A stretch of DNA of 64,000 nucleotides from Spirochaetia bacterium (GTDB lineage: Bacteria > Spirochaetota > Spirochaetia > Treponematales > Rectinemataceae), in contig JARKOY010000079.1 in assembly GCA_029975555.1 (NCBI GenBank), forward strand, positions 124,001-188,000. The letters are read 5' to 3'. Shown one piece after another: positions 25,479 to 27,908 of the stretch; the first letter of the stretch is position 1; each line of letters starts with the position of its first letter. The notes beneath the pieces were generated by a model. It did no database searches. It saw nothing but the letters and a program-made list of their open reading frames with translations, and had not been told where the DNA came from. The translations under genes were made by a program, and so were the position numbers.

Positions 25479-27005
25479 ATGAAAGAGCAGGATAAGCCCA
25501 AAATTTGCCTTTCCCTCACGGGAACAACAATTGCAGAGGATCTGCGCATCCTCGAGCGATACCGGTCACTTGTGGACTATGTTGAGCTGAGGGCCGACTG
25601 TCTGGATCCGAGCGAACGTTTCTACATCCGCTCGTTTCCTGAAAAAGCGGGCCATCCCTGCATTCTCACCATCCGGCGACGGCAGGACGGCGGTAAGTTT
25701 GAAGACGGGGAGGGCGTCCGCCTCGTACTCTTTGCAAAAGCGCTCTCTTTTCCCATGGCCGACGCAAACGCCAATTATGCCTTTGTCGATCTCGAGCACG
25801 ACTTCAGGGCTCCTGTGGTGGAGGAGGCTTGCCGGACCTTCGGCACCCGCATCATCCGCTCGTTTATTTCTCGTACGGGCCTTCCTGAAAATCTCGACAC
25901 TGCCTACGAGAACCTGACACAGGAAGAAGACGAAATACCCAAGCTCGTCGTCCATCCCCAAAACTCGGCCGAGTTCATCCGCTTTCTGGAATGGTCTCAA
26001 CGTCGGCCGAAGCGCGCCCAAATACTCATCGCCAACGGCCCATATGGCCTTGCCTCTCATCTCTTGGCCTGGCGGTTCGGCTCTCTGTGGACCTATGCGA
26101 GCCCCCGGCAGTGCGGCAAGGAGACCACTGCTCCTGATCTTTTCGATCCTCTGGACCTCGTCAACATCTACAACTTCGACCTCGTCGATGCTGACACGGT
26201 GATCTACGCCTTAATAGGCCAACATTCTATAACCCAGTCCCTCTCTCCTTATCTCCACAACACCGCCTTCAGAAAAATGGGCAAAAACGCCCTCCTTATC
26301 CCCACTCCTGTCGATTCTTTCTCCGACGGGCTCAGGATACTCGAGTTGCTCGGCGGCAAGGGTGCGGCGATCACGGTGCCTTTTAAGGAAGATGTGCTTC
26401 CTTTCCTCTCCTTTCATTCCACCGATGTACAACGTATCGGCGCCTGCAATACGCTGGTATGGCGAAATTCAAGCTGGGCTGGCTACAACACCGACGCCGA
26501 CGGTTTCGAGCGCAGCCTTTTGGAATTTATGGGCAAGCAGGATATTTCTGGCTGTCGGGCCACGCTCGTCGGCGCCGGCGGAGCCGCAAAATCGATCGCC
26601 CTCGCCCTGTTCCGCAAAGGCGCGCGCGTGCTCATTCTCAACCGGACTTACAGCGCCGGCCGCGATTTGGCCAGAAAGTACAACTTTTCATATGCCCACC
26701 TCGACGACAGGGCGGCCGATCAAATCTCCGAGTATTCCAATCTCATCGTGCAGGCGACAAGTGTCGGCATGAAGGGCGAAGGAGACCCGATCAACTTCTA
26801 CGAATTCAAAGGCTCCGAAATGGTGTTCGACCTCATCTATCATCCCTCAAAAACCGCGCTGTTAAAAAGAGCCGAAGCGGCGGGGTGCCGCACGATCAAC
26901 GGCTACAAAATGCTGTGCTATCAGGCTGCCGGGCAATATAAACTCTGGATGAATGAGCCGCCGCCCGAAATCTACGCGCAGCTCGAACAGCCCGAACTCT
27001 CATAG
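25479..27005 (+). CDS. aroDE: fused type I dehydroquinate dehydratase-like / shikimate dehydrogenase
   Basis: The 508-residue protein fuses an AroD-like domain (about 5-230) to AroE (about 240-500), steps 3 and 4 of the shikimate pathway. AroE is complete: QSLSPYLHN, AITVPFKED with catalytic Lys, IGACNTLV, YNTDADGF, GAGGAAKSIALAL, NRT and the final GYKMLCYQAAGQ. The AroD domain keeps VELRAD, TIRRRQDGGKF and the Schiff-base Lys in IPKLVVHPQ (about 153). The catalytic His-Asp, expected in IIRS(Y/F)HD, is replaced by IIRSFISR, and the late SR and PGQ motifs are altered. The AroD half may be inactive. A five-codon frame (MDENI) ends in TGA overlapping this ATG. Confidence 0.9.
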   Translation: MKEQDKPKICLSLTGTTIAEDLRILERYRSLVDYVELRADCLDPSERFYIRSFPEKAGHPCILTIRRRQDGGKFEDGEGVRLVLFAKALSFPMADANANYAFVDLEHDFRAPVVEEACRTFGTRIIRSFISRTGLPENLDTAYENLTQEEDEIPKLVVHPQNSAEFIRFLEWSQRRPKRAQILIANGPYGLASHLLAWRFGSLWTYASPRQCGKETTAPDLFDPLDLVNIYNFDLVDADTVIYALIGQHSITQSLSPYLHNTAFRKMGKNALLIPTPVDSFSDGLRILELLGGKGAAITVPFKEDVLPFLSFHSTDVQRIGACNTLVWRNSSWAGYNTDADGFERSLLEFMGKQDISGCRATLVGAGGAAKSIALALFRKGARVLILNRTYSAGRDLARKYNFSYAHLDDRAADQISEYSNLIVQATSVGMKGEGDPINFYEFKGSEMVFDLIYHPSKTALLKRAEAAGCRTINGYKMLCYQAAGQYKLWMNEPPPEIYAQLEQPELS

Positions 27006-27032: not shown

Positions 27033-27908
27033 ATGCCAAAATCTGCGTTTGTCGCCATTGTTGGCAGGCCTTCGGCTGGCAAATCCACGCTTTTGAATGC
27101 GCTCTGCGGCGCAAAAGTCTCCATCGTCAGCCCCGTCCCCCAGACGACGCGCAATACGATCCGCGGTATCGTAACGCGCGCGCAGGGCCAGCTTATCTTT
27201 GTCGATACACCGGGGTATCATCTTTCAGATAAAAAACTCAATCTTAAGCTTCGAGAGCTTGTCCTGCAGGCGCTCTCCGATGTGGACCTGATTCTCTACG
27301 TCATCGACGCCACGCGGAACCCAGGGAAAGAAGAAGAGGCCATCATCGAGCTTCTCGCCAAAGACGACAGCCGTATTGTCATTGCCATCAATAAAGTCGA
27401 CCATCCCGACGCCAAGCCCCTCTTTGTCGAAGAATTCGTCATACCGCGCCTGCCGAAGGCAAAGCGCATCACCATATCTGCGACGCAGGGCACGAATTTG
27501 GACGCCCTCATCGACGCGCTGTTGTTGCTTGCACCGGAAGGACCCCTCTGGTATCCGGAGGAAATCTACACCGATCAGGAACCCGTGTTCCGCATCGGGG
27601 AGATTATTCGGGAAAAGGCCATCCTCCACACGCGCGATGAACTGCCTCACGCCATCGCCGTCGAATACCGAGAATCTTCAAAGCGATCCGATGGAGCTCT
27701 GTTTGCCCGCTTCGACATCCTCGTAGAGCGAGATTCCCAGAAAGCCATCGTCATTGGGCGCCAGGGGTCATTAATAAAGCAGATCCGCGAAGAAGCGGAG
27801 GCAGACCTCAAAGAGCTCTTCGATTATCCCATCAAGCTGCAGTTGCAGGTCGTCGTCGACCCGGATTGGCGCAAAAGCGATTCAAAGCTCTCGCGCATGA
27901 TTTTTTAG
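27033..27908 (+). CDS. era: GTPase Era
   Basis: The 291-residue GTPase matures the 30S subunit by binding the 3' end of 16S rRNA. G1 GRPSAGKST (11-19), G2 region PQTTRNTIRG, G3 FVDTPGYH, G4 INKVDHP and G5 ISATQG are present. A C-terminal KH domain follows (about 200-285, VIGRQGSLIKQIREEAE). AAAGGAGG precedes the start. It follows aroDE by 27 bp on the same strand, and its stop overlaps the convergent pth stop by 4 nt. Confidence 0.97.
   Translation: MPKSAFVAIVGRPSAGKSTLLNALCGAKVSIVSPVPQTTRNTIRGIVTRAQGQLIFVDTPGYHLSDKKLNLKLRELVLQALSDVDLILYVIDATRNPGKEEEAIIELLAKDDSRIVIAINKVDHPDAKPLFVEEFVIPRLPKAKRITISATQGTNLDALIDALLLLAPEGPLWYPEEIYTDQEPVFRIGEIIREKAILHTRDELPHAIAVEYRESSKRSDGALFARFDILVERDSQKAIVIGRQGSLIKQIREEAEADLKELFDYPIKLQLQVVVDPDWRKSDSKLSRMIF

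Follow-up and report, generated by a model that had tools for sequence, protein, structure and literature searches.

A probably retired type I dehydroquinase half in a spirochaete AroDE fusion whose genome also encodes a type II enzyme

The AroD half of the AroDE fusion protein considered here is probably a catalytically retired type I dehydroquinase, made redundant by the type II enzyme AroQ and kept as a structural partner of the AroE half. The sequences themselves give the residue losses, the AroQ profile match, the repeated co-occurrence of the two and the purifying selection, to which an intact predicted fold can be added. Loss of the active site recurs in related species. The alternatives are a dehydroquinase that still works, a domain drifting without any role, or a pocket with a new job.

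The AroDE fusion and its catalytic residues

The gene lies in the window, the 64,000-nucleotide stretch of spirochaete contig that was analysed. Residue numbers such as His143 are those of Escherichia coli AroD, and the state of each position was taken from an alignment to that protein and 207 relatives. "Intact" relatives are defined by having His143. The features are as follows.

25479..27005, forward strand: aroDE fusion gene, 508 aa, with the AroD half at about residues 8-232 and the AroE half at about 240-500
25506..26144, forward strand: DHquinase_I (type I dehydroquinase) domain, probably catalytically retired; Pfam PF01487, residues 10-222, 89.1 bits
25866..25868, forward strand: Ile130, codon ATT, at the position of catalytic His143 (motif SFIS); His in 160/160 intact relatives, as follows from their definition
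25941..25943, forward strand: Lys155, codon AAG, aligned with the Schiff-base Lys170 and kept
26034..26036, forward strand: Asn186 at pocket position M205; Met in 156/160 intact relatives
26058..26060, forward strand: His194, codon CAT, at substrate-binding Arg213; Arg in 160/160 intact relatives
26139..26141, forward strand: Leu221, codon CTT, at Gln236 (the PGQ motif reads PDL); position already variable in intact relatives
26223..26966, forward strand: shikimate dehydrogenase half; Pfam PF08501, PF01488 and PF18317 between residues 249 and 496
27033..27908, forward strand: era GTPase, directly downstream of aroDE and a neighbour only; NF000908, 308 bits

By descent the AroD half is a type I dehydroquinase, since it passes the PF01487 gathering score of 22.2 bits; it falls under the cut-off of the narrower TIGR01093 equivalog (65.5 vs 139.3 bits). 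The original prediction held that the catalytic histidine is gone and the lysine kept, and called for an alignment of AroDE fusions. That alignment bears it out, with H143 replaced by I130 and K170 present as K155. Also kept are E46 (E36), R48 (R38) and R82 (R66), while the pocket carries the changes M205N, A172V and R213H. The further claim that the late motifs are altered stands for R213H, a real departure, but is weak for the PGQ motif, since position 236 is H in 83, Q in 66 and L in 6 of the 160 dyad-intact AroDEs of the order. E86 is likewise D70 in the window protein and Asp in 157/160 intact relatives. Both positions thus vary from the E. coli state in intact relatives, and their changes were rejected as marks of decay. 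Judged by the alignment, the true departures from the functional pattern of the order are only the loss of His143 and R213H. A sequencing or assembly error at His143 was rejected as well, since the sister species, from separate assemblies, have Ile (G069, G093) or Phe (G025) there.

The barrel has lost its general acid-base residue, His143, and would be expected to convert dehydroquinate too slowly to be of use. Could another residue have taken over? The window protein has histidines opposite M174 and R213 in the alignment, and His159 or His194 might in principle act as the acid-base residue of a still-active enzyme. However, the closest relatives without His143 (G069, G093 and G025) have N and R at those positions, so that a compensating histidine, not being common to the relatives, was rejected. 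AroQ is present in the genome, and changing the histidine of E. coli AroD to alanine is reported to lower activity severely (cited in PMC9074039). A dehydroquinase working by such a substitute is therefore extremely improbable.

The AroE half presents a different picture. It keeps K65, D102, N86, N100 and Q244, the catalytic Lys65 being K303 and Asp102 D339 of the window protein, so the prediction that this half is intact holds for all the catalytic residues that were checked, and the idea that the whole AroDE has gone passive was rejected, these residues being retained throughout the window's family. The score of the AroE half is just under the curated cut-off of TIGR00507 (193.7 vs 200.2 bits), a shortfall shared by many AroDEs of the order whose dyad is intact. 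A second, stand-alone AroE, which does exceed the curated cut-off, is encoded in the window genome (L262, G000:C112, 6129-7001, reverse strand); it adjoins sugar-metabolism genes for a LacI regulator, an FGGY kinase and a xylose-isomerase-like protein. Stand-alone AroE is found in most of the His-lost species of the window genus; it was not found in G077, G065 and G010. Given this second enzyme, the AroE half of AroDE may itself be partly redundant.

The fold of the AroD barrel is intact in the AlphaFold2 model, which was made from an alignment of 59 sequences and has a mean pLDDT of 94.8 (about 95 across the barrel) and a pTM of 0.91. In a Foldseek search, the model matched Arabidopsis DHQ-SDH (2o7q) over its full length with a TM score of 0.83.

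AroQ and the loss of the dyad across the order

The window genome (3.27 Mb, 99% complete) contains aroB and aroC and therefore needs the dehydroquinase step; loss of the whole pathway was rejected on the same grounds. A search across the genome for a second type I AroD found none, leaving AroDE as the sole protein of that kind. The genome does encode a single type II AroQ of 161 aa, located on a different contig (C166; gene in L001/L261) and above the curated TIGR01088 cut-off (197.3 vs 169.85 bits), as the original prediction of a type II enzyme elsewhere in the genome had anticipated. Because the sole AroD has lost His143 and AroQ passes its cut-off, AroQ would be the only evident competent dehydroquinase of this organism. 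Presumably it makes the dehydroshikimate in vivo, which the AroE half, still in possession of its catalytic residues, can reduce.

All nine AroDEs found in the window genus are inactivated by a change at His143 or K170. Position 143 is Ile, Phe or Tyr in six of them, one of which also has His at position 170, and position 170 is Arg in the other three. Tyr143 has apparently moved on to Phe and Ile, Lys170 is lost in 4/9, and M205 and A172 are scrambled. That sister species carry different lesions fits redundancy rather than one adaptive change. Most simply, the ancestor of the genus would have had AroQ, which made AroD activity redundant, and the His/Lys dyad would then have been lost by separate routes, His to Tyr, Phe or Ile in some species, with Lys changing to Arg in others. 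The catalytic pocket looks to be decaying in this genus.

How general is this pattern? DHquinase_I is found in 280/294 genomes of the order, nearly always in ORFs of about 500 aa, and AroQ is patchy, with matches in 32/294 genomes, one of them weak. Among the 208 AroD or AroDE proteins of the survey set, the dyad is lost in 21/31 from genomes with aroQ vs 9/177 from genomes without it (Fisher p ~1e-14, kinship between the proteins being ignored). These nine exceptions fall into three groups: four (G045, G015, G026 and G031) are in genomes where another type I AroD bears both His and Lys, three (G132, G017 and G197) in genomes with neither aroB nor aroC, and two in incomplete genomes (G108, 69% complete, and G090, 57%). 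On the other hand, ten proteins from genomes with aroQ, mostly in genus g26 of family f4, keep the dyad, and AroQ therefore does not force its loss. A tree inferred with the pocket columns left out has about 17 changes of His state. With independent pairs, the association of a dead AroD with another dehydroquinase has p ~0.02, and a sign test that takes only aroQ as the partner is weaker (p ~0.07). As a general rule in the order, loss of the dyad would then appear to track the presence of another dehydroquinase.

Some other arrangements were seen in the survey. Two tandem copies of aroQ, separated by about 500 bp, occur in G010:C119, G014:C12, G037:C31, G065:C70, G077:C286, G070:C301, G082:C81 and G102:C11. 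In G113 (L018) and G178 (L019), AroD was found only as a stand-alone protein and AroE only in separate matches, and the fusion there seems lost or unassembled. In G130, G238 and G209, aroB is present, and AroD, AroQ and AroE were looked for and not found.

Why is the barrel kept?

The dead AroD halves still evolve under constraint. Their pairwise dN/dS is about 0.1, with dS partly saturated and the pairs not independent. The 54 columns conserved in intact AroDEs have a mean retention of 0.88 in dead halves, and 21 of them are kept in 100% of the 30 dead proteins, which derive from many independent losses. The fully kept columns include R67, E78, R81 and R127, which are absent or variable in E. 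coli AroD. Besides H143, which is lost by definition of the dead set, the lowest retention is at M205 (0.23) and A172 (0.33), followed by R213 (0.73) and K170 (0.83). With the pocket columns collapsing and 21 others fully kept, the alignment indicates that the catalytic pocket is relaxed while the fold is still under purifying selection. The barrel would be held in this way if the AroE half needs it for folding, stability or assembly of the two domains, and it is this structural dependence that is proposed as the reason for its retention.

The AroD half could instead be without a role, persisting as an open frame for AroE, with its conservation due to a time lag and to the avoidance of misfolding. 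In keeping with such passive decay, the AroD half of dead pairs changes more quickly than the AroE half (relative dN 1.40, vs 0.92 in intact pairs, again with dS partly saturated and pairs not independent). In Candida albicans, the dead dehydroquinase domain of Aro1 gives dimer contacts, yet it can be deleted with wild-type growth (PMC9074039), and this dispensability limits the weight that can be put on the scaffold idea. However, passive decay sits poorly with the low dN/dS and the fully kept columns, or with the fact that the dead AroDEs retrieved are full length except where contig ends cut them, and it is an unlikely account of the barrel.

A second difficulty for retirement is that E46, R48 and R82 nearly always stay and K170 is kept in 25/30 dead proteins, so that the pocket would not seem to be randomised. 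The Schiff-base lysine, Tyr143 and E46/R48/R82 might together bind another ligand, run another reaction or serve in sensing. Of 16 independent losses counted on the tree, about 13 put Tyr in place of His, an excess with p ~4e-6 if the chance of Tyr is taken as 0.25 and 0.01 if it is 0.5. The Treponema-like G017 and G132, and also G197, retain the full-length AroDE ORF with a Tyr/Lys pocket though aroB and aroC are both gone, and in G017 the AroD half is 76% identical to that of an intact sister vs 52% for the AroE half. However, Tyr is a single C-to-T step from His and may simply fill the cavity, and in the window genus Tyr has given way to Phe and Ile, with the lysine lost in several species. 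A new function of the pocket is accordingly quite improbable. The original prediction had left the choice between a scaffold and a new reaction. In the window genus the scaffold is favoured and the new reaction less so, since pocket decay (M205N, A172V and R213H, with K170R or K170H in sister species) combined with a constrained fold points to a structural role.

A new reaction or other function of the AroD half is possible nonetheless, especially in the Treponema relatives. Five of these (G217, G192, G098, G228 and G160) have a full-length AroDE that keeps Tyr143 and Lys170 though the catalytic Asp of its AroE half is lost. A cluster of aroB, aroC, aroE and aroQ, apparently an acquired shikimate operon, is present in the Treponema-like contigs G217:C67, G192:C16, G098:C133, G160:C17, G228:C21 and G293:C74, and the AroE catalytic Asp is missing from the AroDE of all these genomes except G293 (5/6). 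A second role for AroDE is possible in the Treponema relatives, whereas the window's genus looks like pocket decay instead. It is doubtful that AroDE throughout the order, above all through its AroD barrel, has a second function apart from shikimate synthesis.

Precedent and meaning

The observation stands and is well accounted for, and the preferred reading of a retired domain has a close published precedent in fungi. In Candida albicans Aro1, the dehydroquinase domain has been measured to be inactive and the type II enzyme Dqd1 compensates, and in relatives that have no type II enzyme the domain is still active (PMC9074039). Both systems have a fused shikimate enzyme whose type I domain has its His replaced and its fold kept, with a type II enzyme in the genome. 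In the order surveyed here, too, the dyads are mostly intact where the type II enzyme is absent, but the ten exceptions with aroQ keep theirs. Aro1, on the other hand, is a fungal pentafunctional AROM protein, in which His has become Gln and Arg stands in place of Lys, whereas the window protein is a bacterial two-domain AroDE with His changed to Ile and Lys kept, its inactivity being predicted from sequence. Within this one order the loss has also arisen about 16 times in parallel, in some cases alongside a second type I AroD or following loss of the pathway. Plant DHQ-SDH (PDB 2o7q and 2gpt) has the same two-domain order, matches the window AroDE structurally over its full length and shares the AroE catalytic Lys and Asp, but the window protein is without the dehydroquinase His143, Arg213 and the PGQ motif. 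With E. coli AroD (PF01487) it shares the barrel fold, E46, R48, R82 and the Schiff-base Lys170; unlike that enzyme, it lacks His143 and Arg213, and the two sequences have diverged too far for BLAST to match them directly. A literature search on spirochaete or pseudoenzyme dehydroquinases returned nothing relevant, and among the papers searched no earlier bacterial report of such a retired domain was found.

What is already known in Candida yeasts would thus have a counterpart in bacterial AroDE, repeated many times among relatives. The losses amount to a repeated natural experiment on the active site of one fusion enzyme within one bacterial order, in which, once the reaction can be carried out by an unrelated enzyme, the pocket goes and the fold stays under selection. 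Paired sister species make the question of why dead domains are kept testable. For a number of spirochaetes, AroD activity called from a profile match would be wrong, and AroQ is likely to be the dehydroquinase there.
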